The translations under genes were made by a program, and so were the position numbers. A stretch of 64,000 nucleotides of DNA, taken from positions 434,001 through 498,000 of the forward strand of contig NZ_CP039865.1 in NCBI RefSeq assembly GCF_005160265.1, read 5' to 3'. This DNA comes from Phreatobacter aquaticus. Lineage in GTDB: Bacteria; Pseudomonadota; Alphaproteobacteria; Rhizobiales; Phreatobacteraceae. Of the stretch, positions 6,518 to 19,869 are shown piece by piece (position 1 is the stretch's first letter; each line of letters starts with the position of its first letter). The notes under the pieces were generated by a model. That model was not told where the DNA came from. It worked only from the letters and a program-made list of their open reading frames with translations, and ran no database searches.

Positions 6518-6879
6518 CGACGCTCGTCGCAGCGCCAACTTACCGCGCACACAATCGTCACCCCCGGCGAGCGAAGCGAGGGAAGGGGGTCCAGGAGCCG
6601 CTTGCCGCACACTCTCCCCCATGGCGTCGCCGGATCGACGTTGTTGCAGGTTCGGATCTGTTTGGCCCCTGGATCCCCTTCCCTCGGCCTTTGGCCTCGC
6701 CGGGGATGACGATCCTGCTGGAGTGGCGGGTGCGCGCTCAAGCGCGTACTACCCTGATCATCACCCCATCCCCCGTCCGGCCCACGACCTGTCATGCCGG
6801 CTGCCCTCTTCCCCGTTCGGCCCTCCACACCCTAGTGTGGCGGCCCAGCAGGAAACCAGCCAAGGCGAACCAGCCGACC
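6518..6879. other. Intergenic gap carrying a palindromic repeat element
   Basis: The 362 bases between the alpha/beta hydrolase and the CoA-transferase contain no convincing gene. Open frames across it are extensions of neighbouring frames. Most of it is a long inverted-repeat element (6554-6713, described separately). The rest has no recognisable promoter beyond an AAGGCG ribosome site before the CoA-transferase. Confidence 0.6.
6554..6713. repeat. Dispersed palindromic element, copy 1 (GTCACCCCCGGCGAGCG family)
   Basis: The outer arms begin CGTCACCCCCGGCGAGCG and end CGCCGGGGATGACG. Both contain GGGAAGGGG-type cores (GAGGGAAGGGGGTCCAGG on the left, CCCCTGGATCCCCTTCCC on the right), so the whole folds as a long interrupted hairpin with a roughly 60-base central loop. 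Two further copies occur at 12577-12713 and 61711-61878, each between genes. It is a non-coding REP/BIME-like mobile palindrome. Confidence 0.8.
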
Positions 6880-9883: not shown

Positions 9884-9898
9884 TGGCATACAGATTGC
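9884..9898 (+). promoter_or_regulatory. Candidate sigma-54 (-24/-12) promoter of the GGT/DUF1028/ABC operon
   Basis: The sequence TGGCATACAGATTGC matches the sigma-54 consensus TGGCAC-N5-TTGC, with exactly ten bases between the invariant GG (9885-9886) and GC (9897-9898). Transcription would begin near 9910, about 89 bases before the GTG start of the first gene. It rules out the upstream start at 9906 for that gene. Sigma-54 control suggests nitrogen-responsive expression through an NtrC-type activator not present in the window. Confidence 0.65.
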
Positions 9899-9998
9899 GT
9901 CTAACGTGCCGTCCCTGACGGGGCGCTCAACGCTGGATTGCACCAAACGCCAGGCCTCCTATCATCGAAGCCTTCCCAACTCCCGAAAGCCAGTCCCT

Positions 9999-11801
9999 GT
10001 GAGCGCTCCCCGTTTCACCACCCGCCCCGAGATCGACGGCACATTCGGTGTCGTCACGACCACCCATTGGATCGCCTCTGCCGTCGGAATGGGCATTCTG
10101 GAGCGCGGCGGCAATGCCTTCGACGCCGGCTGCGCCGCGGCCTTCACCCTGCAGATCGTCGAGCCGCACCTGAACGGCCCCGGCGGCGACGTGCCGGTCA
10201 TCCTCTATGACGCGAAGACCGAGAAGCCCGAGGTCATCTGCGGCCAGGGCCCGGCGCCCGCCGGCGCGACAATCGAACACTATCGCTCGCTCGGCCTCGA
10301 TCTGGTCCCCGGCACCGGCCTGCTCGCCACCTGCATTCCCGGCGCCTTCGACACCTGGATGGTGATGCTGCGCGACTACGGCACGATGCGGGTGCGCGAC
10401 GTGCTGGAAGCCGCCATCGGCTATGCCCGCAATGGCTATCCGCTGGTCGAGCGCATCCCTGCCACCATCCGCACCGTCGAACAGCTGTTCCGTGAGCACT
10501 GGACCTCGTCCGCCGCGGTCTATCTGCCCGGCGGGAAGGTGCCCGAGCCCGGCGATCTCTTCACCAACGTCAAGCTCGCCGAGACCTATGAGCGCGTGCT
10601 GCGCGAATGCGAGGGCGGTTCGCGCGAGGAGGAGATCGAGCGCGCCCGCAAGGTCTGGAGCCAGGGCTTCGTCGCCGAGGCGATCGACACGTACTGCCGC
10701 ACCCAGGACGTGTTCGACGTCACCGGAACCCACCATCGCGGCGTGCTGACCGGCCAGGACATGGCAACCTGGCAAGCCACGATCGAAGCGCCGATCCACT
10801 ACGATTACGGTCGCTACCGTGTCTTCAAGCCGTCGACCTGGAGCCAGGGGCTCGCCTGCCTGCAGCAGCTCTCGCTGCTCAAGGGCTTCGACCTCGACAA
10901 GCTCGACGTCACCGGTCCCGACTTCGTCCACCTCATCGTGGAAGCCGCCAAGCTCGCCTTCGCCGACCGCGAGAGCTTCTATGGCGATCCCACCTTCGTC
11001 GACGTGCCGATCGAGACGCTGCTGTCGGATGGCTACAATGCCGAACGTCGCCGGCTGATCACCGACACGGCCTCGATGGAACTCCGCCCCGGCTCCATTG
11101 CCGGCAAGGGTGGCAAGGTCGATGCCCGCATCTCCTCCGGCAAGCGCGTGGCGGTCGGCGCGACCGGCGCCGGCGAGCCCACCGTCGGCGATATCGAGAC
11201 CTTTCCGAGCGGCAATACCCGCGGCGACACCGTCCATTTCGACATCATCGACCGCTGGGGCAACATGGTGTCGTCGACGCCGTCCGGTGGCTGGCTGCAA
11301 TCCTCGCCCATCATCCCCGAGCTCGGCTTCTGCCTCGGCTCCCGCGCCCAGATGTTCTGGCTCGACGAGAGCCATCCGGCAGCTCTCGTTCCCGGCAAGC
11401 GGCCGCGCTCGACCCTCACCCCGACGCTGGCCTATCGCGACGGCGCGCCCTATCTCGCCTGGGGTTCGCCCGGCGGCGACCAGCAGGACCAGTGGATTCC
11501 GCAGATGTTCCTGCGCCATGTCCATGCCGGCATGAACCTGCAGGAATCGATCGACGCACCGGCCTGGCACACCGAGCATTTCCCCGGCTCGTTCTGGCCG
11601 CGCACGTCCCGTCCGGGCGTCGTCGTGCTGGAGAGCCGGTTCCCCGAGGCGACGATCGCGGAGCTCAAGCGCCGCGGCCATCAGGTCGAAGTCGGCGGCC
11701 CCTGGTCGGAAGGCCGGCTCACCGGCGCCCGCAAGGAGGGCAACCGCCTGAAGGCGGCCGCCAATCCGCGCGGCATGCAGGGCTATGCGATCGGACGATG
11801 A
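9999..11801 (+). CDS. Gamma-glutamyltransferase family protein (Ntn-hydrolase)
   Basis: Self-processing N-terminal-nucleophile enzyme of the gamma-glutamyltranspeptidase family, about 600 residues from the GTG at 9999 (VSAPRFTTRPEI). The N-terminal ERGGNAFDAGCAAAFTLQIVEP segment and the region NGPGGDVP fit the family. The candidate nucleophile Thr is in RGDTVHFDIIDRWGN near residue 410, followed by STPSGGW, which matches the oxyanion glycine pair. No signal peptide is seen, so it is probably cytoplasmic, unlike classical GGT. It could open gamma-glutamyl or related amide bonds of an imported compound. It heads the operon with a DUF1028 protein and a peptide-type transporter. Confidence 0.9.
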   Translation: MSAPRFTTRPEIDGTFGVVTTTHWIASAVGMGILERGGNAFDAGCAAAFTLQIVEPHLNGPGGDVPVILYDAKTEKPEVICGQGPAPAGATIEHYRSLGLDLVPGTGLLATCIPGAFDTWMVMLRDYGTMRVRDVLEAAIGYARNGYPLVERIPATIRTVEQLFREHWTSSAAVYLPGGKVPEPGDLFTNVKLAETYERVLRECEGGSREEEIERARKVWSQGFVAEAIDTYCRTQDVFDVTGTHHRGVLTGQDMATWQATIEAPIHYDYGRYRVFKPSTWSQGLACLQQLSLLKGFDLDKLDVTGPDFVHLIVEAAKLAFADRESFYGDPTFVDVPIETLLSDGYNAERRRLITDTASMELRPGSIAGKGGKVDARISSGKRVAVGATGAGEPTVGDIETFPSGNTRGDTVHFDIIDRWGNMVSSTPSGGWLQSSPIIPELGFCLGSRAQMFWLDESHPAALVPGKRPRSTLTPTLAYRDGAPYLAWGSPGGDQQDQWIPQMFLRHVHAGMNLQESIDAPAWHTEHFPGSFWPRTSRPGVVVLESRFPEATIAELKRRGHQVEVGGPWSEGRLTGARKEGNRLKAAANPRGMQGYAIGR

Positions 11802-11814
11802 GGCACGCTGAACC

Positions 11815-12531
11815 ATGACCTGGTCGATCATCGCCAAGGACCATCAGACCGGCGCCATCGGCATCGCGGTGGCGACCCGCTTCTTCGCGGTGGGCGCTCT
11901 CGTGCCCCATATCGATCCGGCCGGCGGGGCGGTTGCGACCCAGGCGCTGATGAACCCGACCTATGGCCCGCGCGGATTGCGCCTGCTGCGCGAAGGCGTG
12001 CCGGCTCAGGACGTCGTCCGCCTGCTCACTGAATCCGATGGCGGTGAAAGCCAGCGCCAGCTGCACATCATGGATCGTTCCGGCAGCTTCGCCGCCCATA
12101 CCGGCACCGATTGCGTCGACTGGTGCGGTCATGCCGTCCATGTCGGCTTCTCGGTCGCCGGCAACATGCTGGCGGGACCGCAGGTGATCGACGAGACCGC
12201 CCGGGCCTTCCAGCAACACGGTACCCTGCCCTTCGCCCGCCGCCTGATCACGGCCCTGAAGGCGGGCGAGGCCGCCGGTGGCGACAAGCGCGGCAAGCAA
12301 TCGGCGGCGCTCCTCATCCACGAGACCGAAGAATACCCGGCCCTGTCGCTGCGCGTCGACGACCATGCCGATCCGCTGGTCGAACTGACCCGCCTCGAAC
12401 AGGTCTCCCGCGAGCGCTTCGTTCATTTCGCGCAGTTCTTCGCCACCAAAGACGACCCGACCGGCACGGTCGACCGTACCATCATCAATGCCGCCATCCA
12501 GGCGGCCTTGGCCAAGGAGCAGAGCGCGTGA
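11815..12531 (+). CDS. DUF1028 domain-containing protein (putative Ntn-hydrolase)
   Basis: A 238-residue protein of the DUF1028 family, recognisable by the opening MTWSIIAKDHQTGAIGIAVA and by NPTYGPRGLRLL near residue 45. The family is predicted to have an Ntn-hydrolase fold and is often encoded beside GGT-like or acyl-peptide genes, but its reaction is not established. It starts 13 bases after the GGT-family gene. A palindromic element follows within the 283 bases before the binding-protein gene. A partner role in amide-bond hydrolysis is inference. Confidence 0.88.
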   Translation: MTWSIIAKDHQTGAIGIAVATRFFAVGALVPHIDPAGGAVATQALMNPTYGPRGLRLLREGVPAQDVVRLLTESDGGESQRQLHIMDRSGSFAAHTGTDCVDWCGHAVHVGFSVAGNMLAGPQVIDETARAFQQHGTLPFARRLITALKAGEAAGGDKRGKQSAALLIHETEEYPALSLRVDDHADPLVELTRLEQVSRERFVHFAQFFATKDDPTGTVDRTIINAAIQAALAKEQSA

Positions 12532-12576
12532 GCGAAGCTCTTGCCATCATCCGTCCGGCCTCGACGACACTCCGCA

Positions 12577-12713
12577 CGTCACCCTCGGCGAGCCCGAAGG
12601 GCGAGGGAAGGGGGTCCAGGGGCCAGACGGCAGGGTCGGCGAGATTCGCGGCCGTGAGGTCGCGCCATCCGCTCCTGAACCCCCTTCCCTCACTTCGCTC
12701 GCCGGGGGTGACG
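12577..12713. repeat. Dispersed palindromic element, copy 2
   Basis: The arms CGTCACCCTCGGCGAGCCC (left) and CTTCGCTCGCCGGGGGTGACG (right) match the copy at 6554-6713, including the GGGAAGGGGGTCCAGGGG core. It lies inside an apparent operon, between the DUF1028 gene and the binding-protein gene, so transcripts crossing it would carry a strong hairpin that could set relative expression. Confidence 0.8.
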
Positions 12714-12814
12714 TCCGTTTTCCAAGGCCGGGTCACCGGCACCTTCGACGCACACGCATGACCCGCAATCTCACCAGAAGCGCACAGCGCCGCCAAGCTC
12801 AGAGGATGACACGG

Positions 12815-14347
12815 ATGACCAAGCTGAAACTCTGGACCGCCGCCCTGATCGCGGCCGGAACCGTCTTCGCGGCGACGCCGCCCGTCCACGCCCAGCAATC
12901 GGTGCTGCGCATCGGCCTGGCCGAAGATCCCGACGTGCTGGATCCGACGCGCGGCCGCACCTATGTCGGCCGAATTGTCTTCGCCTCCATTTGCGACAAG
13001 CTGTTCGACATCGACGACAAGCTCGCCATCGTGCCGCAGCTGGCGCTGTCCCACGAGACCTCGGCCGACGGCCTCACCGTCACCATCAAGCTCAGGCCCA
13101 ACGTCAAGTTCCATGACGGCGAGGTGATGGATGCCGAAGCGGTCAAGTTCTCGCTCGAGCGCCACCTGACCATGCAGGGCTCGTTCCGCCGTCCGGAGCT
13201 CTCGGCCATCGACAAGGTCGAGGTGGTCGATCCGCTCACCGTGCGCCTCGTCCTGAAGCAGCCCTTCTCGCCGCTCCTGTCCCAGCTCACCGACCGCGCC
13301 GGCATGATGGTCAGCCCCAAGGCCGCGCGCGAACTCGGCGAGCGCTTCGGCTCGGCTCCGGTCTGCGCCGGCCCCTATCGCTTCGTCGAGCGCATCCAGC
13401 AGGACCGCATCGTCGTCGAGCGCTTTGCCGACTACTGGAACAAGGACCAGGTCACCATCAACCGGATCGAGTACCGGCCGATCGCCGACGCCACCGTGCG
13501 CCTGGCCAATCTGCGCTCCGGCCAGCTCGACATGATCGAGCGCGCGCTGTCCACCGACATCCCGCAGATCCAGGCCAATCCGCAGCTGCGCCTGACCACC
13601 TCCATCGACCTCGGCTATCAGGGCATCACGCTCAACACCGCCAAGTCCGATGCCGCCAAGACCGCCTTCGGCCAGGACCCGCGCGTCATCCAGGCCTTCT
13701 CGCTCGCCATCGACCGGCAGGCGATCAACCAGGTGGTGTTCAACGGTTCCGCCATGCCGGGCAACCAGTGGGTCAATCCGACCAACCCCTTCTACCAGAC
13801 CCGCTTCCCCGTCCCGCAGCGCGACGTTGCCAAGGCCCGCCAGTTGCTCCAGGCGGCCGGCGTGCGCACGCCCGTCGTGGTCGACTTCATGGTGCCGAAC
13901 AATCCGGAAGTGAGGCAGGTGGCCGAAGTGCTCCAGGCGATGACGGCGGAAGCCGGCTTCGAATTGAAGATCCGCGTCACCGAGTTCGCGACGTCGCTGC
14001 AGGAGGCCGAACAGGGCCGCTACCAGGCCTATATGCTGAACTGGTCGGGCCGCACCGATCCGGACGGCAATGCCTTCTCGTTCCATGCCTGCCGCCAGCC
14101 GCTGAACTATGCCGGCTATTGCAACGCGACTGTCGATGCCCTGTTGGCGGAAGCCCGCACCAAGACCAGCCTCGCCGACCGCAAGGCGATCTACGAGAAG
14201 GTCACCGAGATCCTGCAGGCCGAGGGCGGCATCGTCTATCTCTACCATCGCCCTGTGGTCATCGCGCACACCGCGCGCCTCGAGGGTTTCCGGCCGATGC
14301 CGGACGGCCTCGCGCGGGTGGTCGGCCTGAAGTTCCGCGGCAATTGA
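12815..14347 (+). CDS. ABC transporter substrate-binding protein, family 5 (peptide/opine/nickel type)
   Basis: Periplasmic binding protein of the DppA/GsiB/OppA family (SBP_bac_5), 510 residues. A signal peptide spans about residues 1-26 (KLWTAALIAAGTVFAATPPVHAQQ). The mature start LRIGLAEDPDVLDPTRG and the segment LRPNVKFHDGEVMDAEAVKFSLER are family hallmarks. The ATG at 12815 is preferred because AGAGG lies nine bases upstream; ATGs at 12758 and 12806 are alternatives. It is followed by two permease genes. With the GGT-family and DUF1028 genes upstream, a gamma-glutamyl peptide or similar amide is a plausible ligand, by analogy with the glutathione importer Gsi. Confidence 0.92.
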   Translation: MTKLKLWTAALIAAGTVFAATPPVHAQQSVLRIGLAEDPDVLDPTRGRTYVGRIVFASICDKLFDIDDKLAIVPQLALSHETSADGLTVTIKLRPNVKFHDGEVMDAEAVKFSLERHLTMQGSFRRPELSAIDKVEVVDPLTVRLVLKQPFSPLLSQLTDRAGMMVSPKAARELGERFGSAPVCAGPYRFVERIQQDRIVVERFADYWNKDQVTINRIEYRPIADATVRLANLRSGQLDMIERALSTDIPQIQANPQLRLTTSIDLGYQGITLNTAKSDAAKTAFGQDPRVIQAFSLAIDRQAINQVVFNGSAMPGNQWVNPTNPFYQTRFPVPQRDVAKARQLLQAAGVRTPVVVDFMVPNNPEVRQVAEVLQAMTAEAGFELKIRVTEFATSLQEAEQGRYQAYMLNWSGRTDPDGNAFSFHACRQPLNYAGYCNATVDALLAEARTKTSLADRKAIYEKVTEILQAEGGIVYLYHRPVVIAHTARLEGFRPMPDGLARVVGLKFRGN

Positions 14348-14357
14348 CGGATCTCAC

Positions 14358-15299
14358 ATGCTGACGCTCATCGGCAAACGGCTCCTTCAGCTCATCCCGA
14401 CCATCTTCTTCGTGTCGGTGCTGATCTTCCTCCTGCAGCAATTGCTGCCGGGGGACCCGGCCCTCGTGATGGCCGGCGAGGAGAAGGACCCGGAGGTCAT
14501 CGAGCAGATCCGCCGGCGCTACCGGCTCGACCAGCCCCTGCCGGTCCAGTATCTCGCCTGGATCGGCGGCGTGCTACGCGGCGATCTCGGCGAGAGCATG
14601 CGGCTCAGCGAGCCGGTGGCCACTCTGGTTCTGCAGAAGCTGCCGGTCACGCTGCAGCTGGCTGTCATGGCCATGCTGTTCACGCTGGTCATCGGCATTC
14701 CCGCCGGCATCATCTCGGCGGTGAAGAAGGACACCGTGTGGGACTATGCGGTGAACGTCTTCGCGCTCTGGGGCATCTCGACGCCGAACTTCTGGCTCGG
14801 CATCATGATGATCTTCCTGTTCTCCGTGCAGCTCGGCTGGCTGCCGGCGTCCGGCTATGTCTCGCCCTTCGAGGACTTCCGGGCATCCCTTGCCGCCACC
14901 ATCATGCCGGCCTTCGTCCTGGGCAATTCCTTCGCCGGCGTCATCATGCGCCACACCCGCGCCGCCATGCTTCAGGCGCTGGAAAGCGACTATGTCCGCA
15001 CCGCCCGCGCCAAGGGCCTGCTGGAAAGCCGCGTGGTGCTGCGACACGCCATGCGCAACGCGCTGACCCCGATCATCACGCTCGGCGCGCTGGAATTCGG
15101 CACGCTCCTGTCGGGCGCGGTGCTGACCGAACAGATCTTCTCGATCCCCGGTTTCGGCAAGCTGATCGTCGATGCCGTGTTCAACCGCGACTATGCCGTG
15201 GTGCAGGGCGTCGTGCTGGTGACGGCCACCACCTACATGCTGCTGAACCTGCTGGCCGATATCGGCTACATCTTCGCCAATCCCCGGCTGAGGCAATAG
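14358..15299 (+). CDS. ABC transporter permease, DppB/GsiC type
   Basis: Inner-membrane permease of 313 residues. It has the usual N-terminal membrane segment (LIPTIFFVSVLIFLLQQLLPGDPA) and the EAA loop for ATPase contact (DYVRTARAKGLLESRVVLRHAMRNAL, about residues 213-238). It starts ten bases after the binding-protein gene and ends one base before the second permease. It forms the channel together with the next gene. Confidence 0.95.
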   Translation: MLTLIGKRLLQLIPTIFFVSVLIFLLQQLLPGDPALVMAGEEKDPEVIEQIRRRYRLDQPLPVQYLAWIGGVLRGDLGESMRLSEPVATLVLQKLPVTLQLAVMAMLFTLVIGIPAGIISAVKKDTVWDYAVNVFALWGISTPNFWLGIMMIFLFSVQLGWLPASGYVSPFEDFRASLAATIMPAFVLGNSFAGVIMRHTRAAMLQALESDYVRTARAKGLLESRVVLRHAMRNALTPIITLGALEFGTLLSGAVLTEQIFSIPGFGKLIVDAVFNRDYAVVQGVVLVTATTYMLLNLLADIGYIFANPRLRQ

Positions 15300-15300
15300 G

Positions 15301-16182
15301 ATGACCGCTCTGGAGGTTGCAGCACCCGTCGCGGCACGCGCGATCGACAGCCCGGCGCGGAGAGCCTGGCGCCGGCTCAAGGTCCGCAAGGGCGCCATGG
15401 TGGCGCTCGCCGTGCTTGTGGCGATCGTCCTCATCGCGCTGTTCGCCCCGCTGATCTCGCCGCATGACCCAACCCAGCAGAGCTGGCGGGCCGTGCGGCA
15501 GGCGCCGTCATGGGCCCACTGGTTCGGCACCGACGAGGTCGGCCGCGACATCCTCGCCCGCATCATCTTCGGCGCGCGCGCCTCCATGGCGGCGGGTCTC
15601 GTATCGGTCGCCATCGCCATCATGGCCGGTGTGCCGCTTGGCCTTGCCGCGGGCTATCTCGGCGGCTGGACCGATGCGCTGATCTCGCGCCTGACCGATG
15701 CCATGCTCGCCTGCCCGTTCCTGATCCTCGCCATTGCGCTGGCGGCCTTTCTCGGCCCATCGCTGCAGAACGCCATGATCGCCATCGGCATCACGGCCAC
15801 GCCGGTATTCGTGCGGCTGACGCGCGGCCAGGTGCTGACCGTCAAGAACGAGGACTATGTCGAGGCGGCGCGCGCGGTCGGCAACCGCAAATGGCGGATC
15901 GTCGTCTACCACATCCTGCCCAATGTCATGCCGCAGCTGCTGGTTCAGGCCACACTGACGGTGGCGACCGCCATCATCGCCGAGGCCTCGCTGTCGTTCC
16001 TCGGGCTCGGCCAGCAGCCACCCGCGCCGTCCTGGGGCTCGATGCTCAACTCGGCGCAGCGCTTCCTGACCCAGGCGCCCTGGATGGCCATCTTCCCCGG
16101 CCTTGCCATCTTCGTCACCGTGCTGAGCTTCAACCTGCTCGGCGACGGCCTGCGCGACGCCCTCGACCCAAGGTCCAAATAG
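15301..16182 (+). CDS. ABC transporter permease, DppC/GsiD type
   Basis: Second permease subunit, 293 residues, with an N-terminal DppC-type segment (WRRLKVRKGAMVALAVLV) and the conserved HWFGTDEVGRDILARIIFGAR loop near residues 75-95. The EAA loop is VEAARAVGNRKWRIVVYHILPN. It forms the heterodimeric pore with the upstream permease. No DppD/DppF-type ATPase gene follows; instead the next gene, 32 bases on, is a MoeA-like gene. The transporter must borrow ATPases encoded elsewhere. Confidence 0.95.
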   Translation: MTALEVAAPVAARAIDSPARRAWRRLKVRKGAMVALAVLVAIVLIALFAPLISPHDPTQQSWRAVRQAPSWAHWFGTDEVGRDILARIIFGARASMAAGLVSVAIAIMAGVPLGLAAGYLGGWTDALISRLTDAMLACPFLILAIALAAFLGPSLQNAMIAIGITATPVFVRLTRGQVLTVKNEDYVEAARAVGNRKWRIVVYHILPNVMPQLLVQATLTVATAIIAEASLSFLGLGQQPPAPSWGSMLNSAQRFLTQAPWMAIFPGLAIFVTVLSFNLLGDGLRDALDPRSK

Positions 16183-16214
16183 CGCTTGGCGGCCAGACAG
16201 CCTAGAGAGTGGGC

Positions 16215-17330
16215 ATGACGGCACCCGGTTCGCTCACTCCCCTCGATCACGCGCTGGCGCACCTGCTGGACGGCCTCGCACCCGTTCGGCCGGTGCGCAT
16301 GCCAGTCCGCGACGCCATCGGCCTGGTCGCGGCGGAGACGGTGCTGGCGCCAGGCGCCGTGCCGGCCGGCGCTGTGGCGCTGCGCGACGGCATTGCCGTG
16401 ACCTCCTCCGACCTCGTCGGCGCCTCGGCCTATGCGCCGGCCCTGCTGATGACGGCGCCCGCATTGGTCGGGATAGGCGATCCCCTGCCCGCCGGATGCG
16501 ACGCCGTTCTGCCGGCGGATGCCGCGAGCTCTCAAGGGTCCTTCGTCGAGATCGGCCAGGCCGCCTATCCCGGAGAGGGCGCGGCGCTGGCCGGCAGCGA
16601 TCTCGGCGCCGGGACGGCGATCATCCGGCCGGGCGAGACGGTGACCGCGACTGTGGCACTGGCCCTGGCTGTGGCAGGCGTCAGCGAGATCGCTGTACAC
16701 AGACCCGTCGTCCGGTTGCCCGGCGGGCCCTTGTCTCCGGCGCTCGACTGGCTGGCGGACTGGCTCATCGGCCTCGGCTGCGCGGTAGAGGAGGACAGGC
16801 AGAGCGAGACCTCGCTCCGGCTCCCGAACGTCTCCGGCGGCGCGGAACGGAAACCCGCGGACATGCTGGATTCCGGCGCGCCGCCGCGGAGCGACATCTC
16901 GCTCCTGTTCCACATCCCCTCCGGCTCCACACCGCTTGCGCGGGGGCTGGCGCTGAAGCCGGGCGACAGCGCCGAAACCGGCGTTTCAGCGTCAAATCAG
17001 CCGATTATCACCCTGCCACCGCGGTTCGACGGCATTGTGGCGGTGGCCCATGCCCTCGTCCTGCCGCTCGTCGCCCGTCTCACCGCGCGCCGCGTCCATC
17101 GGGTCACCCGCCCCCTCACTACCAAGGTCACCTCCACCGTCGGGGTCACGGATGTCGCATTGCTGCGCTCGGCCGATCGGGGCTATGACCCCCTTGGTGC
17201 CGGCCGCATCGCGCTGTCAGCCCTGCTCGCGGCCGATGCCATCGCGCTCATCCCGCCGGACAGCGAGGGCGCGGCGGCGGGCACGCCGATCGACGCCATC
17301 CCCCTCACCCGTCCCCTGATCACCCAATGA
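16215..17330 (+). CDS. Degenerate MoeA-like protein
   Basis: A 371-residue paralogue of molybdopterin molybdotransferase. The N-terminal part retains MoeA-like layout (LDHALAHLLDGLAPV, RDAIGLVAAETVLAPGAVPAG, and LRDGIAV where MoeA has MDGYA), but the molybdopterin-binding GGTS domain is missing and the C-terminal half matches no family I know. It ends with GAGRIALSALLAADAIALIPPDSEG, which resembles the end of domain IV. ATG 16215 has AGAGAG upstream. It overlaps the full MoeA-fusion gene by four bases, so the products are probably made together. It could be a structural partner or a sensor; catalysis is doubtful. Confidence 0.75.
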   Translation: MTAPGSLTPLDHALAHLLDGLAPVRPVRMPVRDAIGLVAAETVLAPGAVPAGAVALRDGIAVTSSDLVGASAYAPALLMTAPALVGIGDPLPAGCDAVLPADAASSQGSFVEIGQAAYPGEGAALAGSDLGAGTAIIRPGETVTATVALALAVAGVSEIAVHRPVVRLPGGPLSPALDWLADWLIGLGCAVEEDRQSETSLRLPNVSGGAERKPADMLDSGAPPRSDISLLFHIPSGSTPLARGLALKPGDSAETGVSASNQPIITLPPRFDGIVAVAHALVLPLVARLTARRVHRVTRPLTTKVTSTVGVTDVALLRSADRGYDPLGAGRIALSALLAADAIALIPPDSEGAAAGTPIDAIPLTRPLITQ

Positions 17331-19267
17331 CCGAACGCCCGAGCCTCGACCAGGACCAGTTCCTCACCGTGCTATCGCGCGAGGAGGCGGTCGCACGCTT
17401 CGTGGCGGCCCTACAACCGAAGCCGCTTGGGCTTGAAATCGCAGCGCTTTCCGATCTGGTCGGCCGCGTTCTTGGCCGCGATATCGCAGCGCCTGTCGAC
17501 ACCCCACCCTTCGACCGCTCGGTGGTCGACGGCTTCGCGGTCTCGGCCGCCGATGTGGCGCAGGCCTCCGAGGCAGCCCCGGTGATGCTCGCCCTGAACG
17601 GCGAGACCATTGCCTGCGGCACCCTGCCAAGGCTGGCGCTCGCCGCTGGAACCGCGACCCCGATCGCGACCGGCGGCCCGATCCCGCGCGGCGCCGATGC
17701 CGTCGTGATGGTCGAGCACACCAACCTGGCCGCCGATGGCCGTCTGGTGGTCAGCCGGGCCGTCGCGCCCGGCCAGAACATCGCCTTCGCCGGATCCGAC
17801 ATCGCCCGCGGCGAGACGCTGCTGCGCGCTGGGACCGTCATCGGCGCCCGCGAGATCGGCATGCTCGCGGCGGTGGGCCTCGCGGAAGTCGAGGTCTGGC
17901 GGAAGCCCCACGTCGCCGTCATCTCAACAGGCGACGAGTTGGTGGCCCCCGGCCAGCCGCTGCGCCCCGCCGCGATCTACGATTCCAACGGCCCGATCGT
18001 CGCCGCGGCGCTGCAGGAAAACGGCTGCGATCCCATACGCTTCGGCGCCATTGCCGATGATGCCGCGCTGCTTGAAGCGACCATGCGCGAGGCCCACGCG
18101 ACCTGCGATGCGGTCATCCTGTCGGGCGGCACGTCGAAGGGCGCGGGCGATCTCACCTACCGGATCGTCGGCAGTCTCGGCGCCCCCGGCATCGTCGCCC
18201 ATGGCGTGGCACTGAAACCCGGCAAGCCGCTCTGCCTCGCGGTCTGCGAGGGCAAACCGGTAGTGATCCTGCCTGGCTTCCCGACCTCGGCCATGTTCAC
18301 CTTCCACGACATCGTGGCGCCGGTCCTGCGGACGCTCGCCGGCCATCCCGAGCGCGCCGAGGTGACGCTGACCGCCCGTGTCCCGGTCCGGGTCCCCTCC
18401 GACCTCGGCCGCACCGAGTTCGTCATGGTGGCGCTGGCGGAAACCGCATCGGGGCGGGTCGCCTATCCGATCGGCAAGGGCTCGGGCTCGGTGACCGCCT
18501 TCAGCCAGGCCGATGGTTTCGTCACCATCGACGCCCTGTCGGAAGCCATGCCGGCCGATACCGAAGCGGAGGTGACCCTGTTCACCCCGCATCTCACCGT
18601 GCCCGATCTGGTCATCATGGGCAGCCATTGCGTCGGGCTGGACGCGGTGATCGCAAGGCTTGGCGCCCATAGCCTGACGGCCCGTTCGCTGTCGCTCGGC
18701 AGCCTTGGCGGACTGGCGGCGCTCCGCCGTGGCGAATGCGATCTTGCGCCCATCCACGTGCTCGATCCCGCCACCGGCACCTACAACCGCCCGCTTCTGT
18801 CCCCCGGCATGGACCTGATCCCCGGCTGGCGCCGCATGCAGGGCCTTGTCCATCGGCTCGACGACCGCAGGTTCGCCGGAGCGGTCGATGTCCCTACAGC
18901 CGTCGCGACAGCCCTTGCCGATCCCGCCTGCCTGATGGTCAATCGCAACCAGGGCGCCGGGACACGCATCCTGATCGACCAGCTGCTGGCCGGCGCCAAA
19001 CCGCCCGGCTATTGGAACCAGCCACGCTCCCACAACGCGGTCGCGGCTGCTGTCGCTCAAGGCCGGGCCGACTGGGGCATCGCCATCAAGCCGGTGGCCG
19101 ACGCCAATGGCCTGGGCTTTCTCCCGCTCGGACCTGAACACTACGACTTCGCCGTCTCGGCGGCTCCGCGTGCACCGGCTGCCATCGATGCCTTCCGCAA
19201 GGCCATTGCCGAGGCCGCTGACGCGCTCAAGGCCCTTGGCTTCATTCCCGCCAGCGAGGCACCGTGA
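17327..19267 (+). CDS. MoeA-periplasmic-binding-domain fusion protein
   Basis: A 646-residue fusion. Residues about 1-420 are MoeA (molybdopterin molybdotransferase), with PFDRSVVDGFAVSAADV for the MDGYA region, GGPIPRGADAVVMVEHT, VISTGDELVAPGQPL and the cofactor-binding SGGTSKGAGD. Residues about 425-646 are a periplasmic-binding-like domain (PBP_like, PF12727) with RNQGAGTRILIDQLL and NAVAAAVAQGRADWGIAIKP. This domain is linked to MoeA in other bacteria and archaea and is thought to sense a small molecule; its ligand is not established. It overlaps both neighbours by four bases. Confidence 0.9.
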   Translation: MTERPSLDQDQFLTVLSREEAVARFVAALQPKPLGLEIAALSDLVGRVLGRDIAAPVDTPPFDRSVVDGFAVSAADVAQASEAAPVMLALNGETIACGTLPRLALAAGTATPIATGGPIPRGADAVVMVEHTNLAADGRLVVSRAVAPGQNIAFAGSDIARGETLLRAGTVIGAREIGMLAAVGLAEVEVWRKPHVAVISTGDELVAPGQPLRPAAIYDSNGPIVAAALQENGCDPIRFGAIADDAALLEATMREAHATCDAVILSGGTSKGAGDLTYRIVGSLGAPGIVAHGVALKPGKPLCLAVCEGKPVVILPGFPTSAMFTFHDIVAPVLRTLAGHPERAEVTLTARVPVRVPSDLGRTEFVMVALAETASGRVAYPIGKGSGSVTAFSQADGFVTIDALSEAMPADTEAEVTLFTPHLTVPDLVIMGSHCVGLDAVIARLGAHSLTARSLSLGSLGGLAALRRGECDLAPIHVLDPATGTYNRPLLSPGMDLIPGWRRMQGLVHRLDDRRFAGAVDVPTAVATALADPACLMVNRNQGAGTRILIDQLLAGAKPPGYWNQPRSHNAVAAAVAQGRADWGIAIKPVADANGLGFLPLGPEHYDFAVSAAPRAPAAIDAFRKAIAEAADALKALGFIPASEAP

Positions 19268-19869
19268 CCCAGCCCCTGCTCGACCTCGACGGCCATACCG
19301 ACGTGCCCAATGACCGCGTCGCGGCCATCGTCACCTATCTCCAGGTGCTGGAGAAGCCCTTGGCAGGCCCGCGATCCGACGCGGTGCGGCTCGTGCCGGT
19401 GCCAAAGCCCGATCTCGGCTGGTATCGCGATCTCTATCGCGCCATAGGCGGCGACTGGTTGTGGACATCAAGGCTCCGTCTGTCCGACGACGCCCTGGCG
19501 GCCATCCTCCACCATCCCGACGTGGCGGTGTTCTCAGGCGAGGGCGCCGCTGGCAGCGTGGGCATTGTCGAACTCGATTTCCGCGTTCCCGGCGAGGCCG
19601 AGATCGTGTTCTTCGGGCTGCGCCCCGAGGCAACCGGCAAGAGCCTCGGCGCAGCCATGATGGCCCGTGCGGTGGACGAAGCCTGGCGCCCGGGCATTGG
19701 CCGCGTCTGGCTGCACACCTGCACGCTGGATCATCCGGCTGCGGTCAAGTTCTACCAGCGCCAGGGCTTCCGGCCCTACAAGCGGGCGATCGAGATCTTC
19801 CCCGACCCCCGGCTGACCGGCATCTTCCCGCGCAGCGCGGCGGCTCATGTGCCGGTGATCGGCAGCTAG
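19264..19869 (+). CDS. GNAT family N-acetyltransferase
   Basis: A 201-residue acetyltransferase with the GNAT acetyl-CoA site read as FGLRPEATGKSLGAAMMARAV (about residues 118-138) followed by VWLHTCTLDHPAAVKFYQRQGF, a typical motif B. The start is the GTG overlapping the MoeA-fusion stop. It ends the plus-strand operon and overlaps the convergent epmA stop by four bases. The acceptor substrate is unknown. Confidence 0.9.
   Translation: MTQPLLDLDGHTDVPNDRVAAIVTYLQVLEKPLAGPRSDAVRLVPVPKPDLGWYRDLYRAIGGDWLWTSRLRLSDDALAAILHHPDVAVFSGEGAAGSVGIVELDFRVPGEAEIVFFGLRPEATGKSLGAAMMARAVDEAWRPGIGRVWLHTCTLDHPAAVKFYQRQGFRPYKRAIEIFPDPRLTGIFPRSAAAHVPVIGS

Follow-up and report, generated by a model that had tools for sequence, protein, structure and literature searches.

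The stretch of DNA analysed here (the window) comprises 64,000 nucleotides of the Phreatobacter aquaticus genome, positions 434001-498000 of a 4.97 Mb single contig (NZ_CP039865.1), and the locus of interest lies at its positions 9884-19869. Eight genes are found there: a gamma-glutamyltranspeptidase (GGT) family gene, a DUF1028 gene, a binding protein of the SBP_bac_5 family (SBP), two permeases (PermB and PermC), a degenerate MoeA paralogue (MoeAd), a fusion of MoeA to a periplasmic-binding-type domain (MoeA-PBP), and a GNAT acetyltransferase. MoeAd and MoeA-PBP together are referred to as the MoeA pair. Gene content, gene order in relatives, the loss of catalytic motifs and residue patterns indicate that the importer genes and the MoeA pair are probably two separately working units, juxtaposed by a lineage-specific rearrangement. 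The features of the locus are as follows.

9884..9898, plus strand: candidate -24/-12 (sigma-54-like) element, TGGC-N7-TTGC (motif scan and alignment of relatives)
9999..11801, plus strand: GGT-family Ntn hydrolase homologue, not the glutathione GGT equivalog (Pfam 392.8 bits; TIGR00066 275.4 bits, cut-off 357.85)
11815..12531, plus strand: DUF1028 protein (PF06267, 242.3 bits; solved relative 2imh, E 5.9e-28)
12573..12717, no strand assigned: palindromic element in the DUF1028-SBP gap (inverted repeats; a 31-nt part recurs at 6557-6587)
12758..14347, plus strand: SBP_bac_5 binding protein, SBP (the open reading frame opens at 12488; probable start at 12758 or 12806)
14358..15299, plus strand: OppB/DppB-type permease, PermB (Pfam)
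15301..16182, plus strand: OppC/DppC-type permease, PermC (Pfam; NCBIfam Opp2C barely reached, 300.3 against 300 bits)
16215..17330 (alternative start GTG 16209), plus strand: MoeAd, degenerate MoeA paralogue (MoeA_N 63 bits; MoeA_C below cut-off; no MoCF_biosynth)
17327..19267, plus strand, overlapping MoeAd by 4 nt: MoeA-PBP fusion (NF011068 740.4 bits, cut-off 534; Pfam MoeA_N, MoCF_biosynth, MoeA_C and PBP_like)
19264..19869, plus strand: GNAT acetyltransferase (Pfam; adjoins EpmA in relatives, outside the MoeA module)

Profile matches bear out the gene identities that had been read from the sequence in the original prediction, all on the plus strand. The transporter had also been described as lacking an ATPase, and a profile search agrees that none of the eight genes from GGT to GNAT codes for one. 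The start of GGT is probably GTG 9999, because the alignment with nine relatives starts only at residue 31-37 of the open reading frame that begins at 9906.

The importer genes recur as a cassette within the genus, which was compared across 12 genomes including that of the window. DUF1028 orthologues of at least 70% identity occur in 10 of the 12, and all ten sit within the order SDR-GGT-DUF1028-SBP-PermB-PermC, the G001 cassette being cut inside PermC by a contig end. G005 and G011 gave no DUF1028 match and are scored as cassette-free from that search alone; contig ends interrupt the loci compared in G001 and G009. Two oligopeptide-type ATPase genes lie between DUF1028 and SBP in G003 and G008 only. 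Because eight of the ten cassettes carry none, the ATPase-free form is the usual one in the genus, and loss of the ATPases as a window-specific deletion was rejected on the same distribution. In the window genome, the closest counterpart of the G008 cassette ATPase shares 55% identity with it and lies at a different locus. Upstream of the cassette, the window holds genes of acyl-CoA type (TetR, enoyl-CoA hydratases, AMP-binding, CoA-transferase III and SDR).

This first unit (9999-16182) would import an amide- or peptide-like compound through its binding protein and two permeases, with an ATPase supplied from another locus, and the GGT homologue and DUF1028, both hydrolase-type, would probably cleave what is imported. 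The solved chains closest to the GGT protein are 6j3a (680 bits) and 6j3i, both labelled gamma-glutamyltranspeptidase. Assignment as a classical GGT was rejected on the TIGR00066 equivalog score given above. A Gsi glutathione importer was likewise rejected, with GsiB at 210.9 against 594 bits, GsiC at 285.1 against 463 and GsiD at 312.3 against 484. With models of the Opp2 (nickel) type the permeases give a mixed result, in that PermC just reaches Opp2C and PermB scores 319.8 against 350 bits for Opp2B; SBP scores 155.2 bits against the Opp5A/NikA model, for which the cut-off is 600. A literature search found no paper on DUF1028, either by itself or in combination with a GGT term, and none on structure 6J3I. 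The genes of this unit had been called tightly packed, a description that fails between DUF1028 and SBP, where 226-274 nt separate the DUF1028 end at 12531 from the most likely SBP starts. Two nested 21-nt inverted repeats occupy positions 12573-12717 of this gap, and the two window copies of their 31-nt part differ at one position. A 16-nt core of this palindromic dispersed repeat is present twice at locus L049 of the window genome and was absent from four further loci of that genome that were checked.

What follows the cassette differs among relatives. The MoeA pair comes immediately after PermC in one of the ten cassettes, that of the window, so that the layout is not conserved; this count includes G001, whose cassette breaks off within PermC but whose MoeAd has a different gene in front of it, the HTH-PBP gene described below. 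The pair lies beside the cassette in three genomes (window, G003 and G008) and elsewhere in seven of the ten. In G003 and G008, PermC is followed by opposite-strand tupBCA and then by HTH-PBP, MoeAd, MoeA-PBP, GNAT and EpmA. In G002, G004, G006, G007 and G010 it is followed by other genes, including an opposite-strand ABC ATPase, and then by GNAT and EpmA, while in G009 an ABC ATPase is visible before the contig ends; the insert between PermC and GNAT was inspected by eye in G007 only. In the window, EpmA lies on the minus strand directly after GNAT. The two genes adjoin in all eight loci where both are visible, the window included, and also in genomes without MoeA at this site; GNAT was rejected as a member of the MoeA module for that reason. 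The PermC-GNAT site (L035, L039, L052-L056 and L058) carries differing sets of ABC-transporter genes from species to species and resembles an insertion hot spot.

The MoeA pair keeps different and more constant company. MoeAd is matched in all 12 genus genomes, with an open frame in each, as well as in 2 of 49 genomes that represent the order's other families; a first contig scan with a single MoeAd query gave no match. Directly upstream of MoeAd in all 11 other genus genomes is a gene combining HTH_17 and PBP_like domains (HTH-PBP). Complete tupBCA stands beside HTH-PBP in nine of these 11, the remaining two being cut by contig ends, and MobB, MoeA1, MobA and FdhD stand beside tup in seven (MobB is named by its match to annotated mobB, MoeA1 by its neighbours and pocket residues). 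TupA is identified by the solved tungstate-binding protein 3lr1 (E 3.7e-77), with 235.9 bits against the NCBIfam TupA model, under its equivalog cut-off of 400. The PBP part of HTH-PBP (L039:8507-9397) scores 126 bits against the C-terminal portion of the MoeA-PBP model, and the regulator-like protein and the insertase therefore share a sensor-like domain.

Seven of the 11 genus relatives thus hold a tungsten cofactor module at one locus, and in the window genome the module is split over about 0.45, 3.19 and 3.82 Mb. HTH-PBP and tup lie there at 3.815-3.819 Mb, some 3.36 Mb from the MoeA pair (1.6 Mb the other way if the contig is circular), and MobB-MoeA1-MobA-FdhD lie near 3.19 Mb, where the single own-genome match to FdhD is found. 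The own tup/HTH-PBP locus (L048:9779-13056, 3.815 Mb) gave no MoeA match when searched with MoeAd and MoeA-PBP. The second unit (16215-19267) would accordingly be a displaced insertase half of the genus module for tungsten and formate dehydrogenase maturation.

The association of MoeAd with MoeA-PBP extends beyond the genus. At seven named loci from other taxa (Bosea, Rhodovulum, Natronohydrobacter, Roseicyclus, Loktanella, Paracoccus and a Hyphomicrobiales metagenome-assembled genome), MoeA-PBP follows MoeAd in every case, and tup or MoeA1/MobB/MobA/FdhD lie within the stretch at six. Across 385 sampled Alphaproteobacteria, MoeA-PBP was found in nine (E up to 1e-100), the window among them. 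In eight of the nine, the gene immediately before MoeA-PBP on the same strand is MoeA-like, two of these being fragments at contig ends; in the ninth, G095, two ABC genes on the opposite strand intervene and MoeAd is 2.2 kb upstream. Ordinary MoeA is also picked up by the MoeAd profile, against which the eight upstream genes score strongly in the window, G045, G248 and G342 (E 3e-72 or better), more weakly in G407 and G111, and as fragments in G085 and G186. Among plasmids, MoeA-PBP occurs in 15 records of the collection, six of which were opened. A MoeAd match lies upstream in five of the six (in two pieces in the Sinorhizobium and Pseudoroseomonas plasmids) and a MoeA-like gene in the sixth, from Diaphorobacter. 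Five of the six carry tup genes (TupA only in Diaphorobacter) and four an annotated formate dehydrogenase alpha gene; Pseudoroseomonas has neither. In the Sinorhizobium sp. K101 plasmid (L109:7905-8961), the annotation shows two short neighbouring genes in the MoeAd region.

The first MoeA gene had been called degenerate, and closer inspection agrees: MoeA_N alone exceeds its cut-off, and nearly all catalytic motifs are lost. In an alignment of 14 MoeAd with 14 MoeA-PBP and one MoeA1, the MoeAd sequences do not conserve PPFD, the T100-type Thr, STGDEL (E188-type), YDSNG, SGGTSKGAGD (GGxSxG-type), the second Lys of KPGK (K279-type), LPGFP, the R350-type Arg or the S371 region, and they keep the D142-type Asp. 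Residues are numbered after E. coli MoeA; we take their roles to be those generally assigned, and the numbers themselves appear in PDB titles. A pattern check found STGDE, GGxSxGxxD and KPGKP missing from the upstream partners in G111 and G407 as well, and motif loss in G085 and G186 was checked over part of the gene only. The predicted structure of MoeAd (pLDDT 80.8, pTM 0.73) is disordered at residues 196-239, and its best solved match is the MoeA 1uz5 (E 1.3e-24, TM 0.54, rmsd 9.2). The MoeA family is clear from this match, which does not extend to the overall arrangement of the domains. MoeA-PBP, for its part, exceeds the full-length model NF011068/PRK14498, and its active site is intact.

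The pocket of MoeA-PBP reads KPGKP and LPGFPTSA, the molybdate type, in every row of at least 55% identity. MoeA1 of the window genome reads KPGRP and LPGNPVAV, the tungsten type, and the MoeA1 rows of tungsten/formate dehydrogenase clusters likewise have KPGRP; the third MoeA of the window genome (L087), with RPGKP, is regarded as the general MoeA. In Methylobacterium extorquens, MoeA1 is the tungstate insertase for FDH1, and Arg291 and Ala312 bias it toward tungsten (PMC13197769). MoeA-PBP has itself been proposed as a tungsten insertase that co-occurs with TupA in 86% of cases and shares a locus with it in 28% (PMC11733289). A molybdate-type pocket sits uneasily with that role, unless the PBP domain or MoeAd sets the selectivity. 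One reading would keep MoeA-PBP as the tungstate insertase proper and regard MoeAd as a decaying remnant without function. The published co-occurrence and the tup linkage in the genus speak for the first half of it. MoeAd, however, has an open frame throughout the genus, a MoeA-like gene accompanies MoeA-PBP in nine of nine class members, and the pocket is molybdate-type at both of the positions that bias M. extorquens MoeA1, so that this reading appears unlikely.

Under the two-unit reading, the PBP domain of MoeA-PBP may bind tungstate or molybdate in the cell and hand it to the intact MoeA active site, with MoeAd pairing as a non-catalytic subunit. A more specific proposal, which we put forward tentatively and would not bet on, is an asymmetric insertase in which the catalytic MoeA-PBP, with its oxyanion-binding domain, and the pseudoenzyme MoeAd jointly sort or buffer tungstate versus molybdate; in the window lineage it would have been brought under an unrelated importer operon's control. 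A literature search from which most subscription papers were out of reach turned up no account of MoeA-PBP with a degenerate MoeA next to it.

Phylogenies outline how the two units may have met. In the MoeA-PBP tree, the window, G003 and G008 are set apart from all other genomes at a support of 81, and the cassette-gene tree (eight genomes, no outgroup) gives the same split with a support of 100. In the simplest history, tup, HTH-PBP and the MoeA pair would have arrived at the PermC-GNAT site in the ancestor of these three, and the tup half would later have been displaced in the window lineage. The window genome's own tup and HTH-PBP sit on a long branch; the tup may have been re-acquired rather than moved, a course that the tree allows. 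The window pair would now be severed from HTH-PBP, its likely regulator, and probably be expressed by read-through from the importer operon or from a promoter inside PermC.

A narrower form of the two-unit reading, overlapping with it, holds that the importer operon captured the pair, which was cut off from HTH-PBP and is now expressed from the importer transcript, as a regulatory rewiring without any biochemical link. We give this an even chance. It agrees with the position of HTH-PBP and tup near 3.815 Mb on the same contig, and with the intact open reading frames of MoeAd and MoeA-PBP, the latter 80% identical to its G003 and G008 counterparts. It agrees further with the TGGAATNNNTGCA block, which is present in most aligned tup/HTH-PBP intergenic regions and was not found near the MoeA pair in the window, and with a scan of 15900-16400 that found no sigma-70-like site. 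That scan covered sigma-70 only, however, and a promoter inside PermC is possible, while the role of the TGGAATNNNTGCA block as an operator is a guess.

The promoter of the importer operon is itself a matter of candidates. The -24/-12 motif reported upstream of GGT is present, as TGGCATACAGATTGC at 9884-9898, and is a plausible element, about 100 nt from the probable GGT start. No other exact match to TGGCAYNNNNNTTGC occurs in the window, where 0.33 are expected, and at least one match occurred in 27 of 100 shuffles. Against the longer consensus TGGCAYR-N4-TTGCW it has one mismatch and the correct -24/-12 spacing; with one mismatch allowed, the window holds two matches against 1.52 expected, which is not above chance for 64 kb. 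Taken alone, the motif is weak evidence for a promoter. When the upstream regions of the window and nine relatives are aligned, TGGC-N7-TTGC (GG-N10-GC) stands at the aligned position in seven of the nine and is missing there in G003 and G008. The window and these seven share an identical 29-nt block, CTTGGCTCATGTCTTGCTTATGATACAAG, whose flanks diverge, and to judge from this pattern the block looks like a functional element. The block also holds TATGAT, which leaves its assignment to one sigma factor unsettled, with sigma-54 as a candidate.

Several observations weigh against the separation of the two units and their assignment to importer and tungsten module. The 32-base gap reported at 16183-16214 stands if MoeAd starts at ATG 16215 and shrinks to 26 nt if it starts at GTG 16209. 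Either way it is short, and since the scan of 15900-16400 found no terminator-like site in addition to no sigma-70-like one, co-transcription across it is possible; the RNA fold of the gap is no better than that of shuffles (z 0.39). In the class sample, tup or MoeA1/FdhD lie in the fetched stretch of two of six readable loci (G045 and G342), two of the eight non-window members having contigs too short for their neighbours to be read. Neither was in the fetched stretch of G248, G095, G407 and G111, in which tup was not searched for elsewhere. Beyond the genus and the named loci, the link to tungsten genes is loose, which fits the 28% same-locus figure of PMC11733289. Some pairs adjoin other transporters (G248, G095, G407 and Pseudoroseomonas). 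Deletion of M. extorquens moeA3 or moeA5 did not stop tungsten insertion into FDH1 (PMC13197769), which counts against the reading if these genes correspond to the MoeA pair, as they may; in that case the result fits a role at limiting metal or for another target enzyme. Finally, in the unrelated metagenome-assembled genome G186 (L103:457-5800, a 5.8 kb contig), the MoeA pair is immediately followed, in the same orientation, by genes for a GGT and a solute-binding protein. GGT genes are common, at 4-9 per genome in five genomes searched, and the G186 neighbourhood is perhaps chance. In G248 (L099:9706-16647), genes for a Peripla_BP_2 protein, a FecCD permease and an ABC ATPase precede the pair, and a TonB receptor gene is divergent; this set may be a further route of oxyanion uptake.

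The original prediction had taken the whole locus as one functional operon, nitrogen-controlled, that imports and cleaves a gamma-glutamyl or amide compound and that the MoeA pair would serve, for example by maturing a molybdenum enzyme that degrades the compound. The shared strand, the short gap without a terminator, the -24/-12 motif and the G186 neighbourhood all point that way. Set against these are the location of the MoeA pair away from the cassette in seven of ten genus genomes, the opposite-strand tungstate transporter and HTH-PBP that intervene in G003 and G008, and a Rhizobium GGT/DUF1028/importer cassette that is annotated without MoeA. The constant neighbours of the pair in the genus are tup and HTH-PBP, and in the genus and at most of the named loci it lies with genes for tungstate uptake or formate dehydrogenase maturation. 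The single operon is left unsupported and is, in our judgement, very improbable.

The apparent new operon is thus mostly an accident of neighbourhood, which is useful to know. The pseudoenzyme-plus-insertase pair, whose pairing we infer, is the part that deserves follow-up. A protein that has been put forward as a tungsten insertase (PMC11733289) has a molybdate-type pocket and travels with an active-site-less MoeA, a gap that can be tested, and the pair offers a defined handle on how cells separate tungsten and molybdenum cofactors. With its pair severed from the likely regulator, the window genome offers a natural experiment on the importance of tungstate control.

Each unit has relatives among known systems. 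As in Rhizobium, GGT, DUF1028, SBP and two permease genes are adjacent in the window. The cassette of the Rhizobium plasmid NZ_CP063398.1 (GntR-SBP-PermB-PermC-GGT-DUF1028-ATPase) shares the GGT, DUF1028, SBP and permease families with the window at 49-65% identity, but it has its own ATPase, a different gene order and a surrounding stretch without MoeA. A Haematobacter plasmid carries this Rhizobium cassette in the same form except that DUF1028 is missing. Four of 80 GGT plasmid records were opened; an importer lies beside GGT in two, does not in one (another Rhizobium), and the fourth has no annotation and gave no importer match. The Gsi glutathione importer shares the broad SBP_bac_5 and BPD_transp_1 families with the window cassette, whereas the NCBIfam GsiB, GsiC and GsiD scores fall far under their cut-offs and the window cluster has no ATPase gene.

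For the MoeA pair, the nearest likeness is to the archaeal MoeA-PBP/MoeA1 arrangement with TupA, which shares the domain order, the TupA link and contiguous MoeA paralogues; both archaeal copies seem to keep the conserved active site, whereas MoeAd has lost it and tup lies elsewhere in the window genome (PMC11733289). Actinobacterial Glp resembles MoeAd in being a MoeA paralogue whose enzymatic function is predicted to be lost, and has been repurposed for cell division; Glp is linked to FtsZ, and MoeAd instead has a shortened domain III and adjoins MoeA-PBP (PMC11733289). The moeA1-mobB-tupBCA tungsten pathway of M. extorquens is mirrored in most genus relatives, where MoeA1 (with a KPGR and Ala pocket), MobB, MobA, FdhD and tup lie near the pair. 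The M. extorquens tungstate insertase is MoeA1 and not MoeA-PBP (PMC13197769), and in the window genome MobB-MoeA1-MobA-FdhD stand apart from the pair, near 3.19 Mb.

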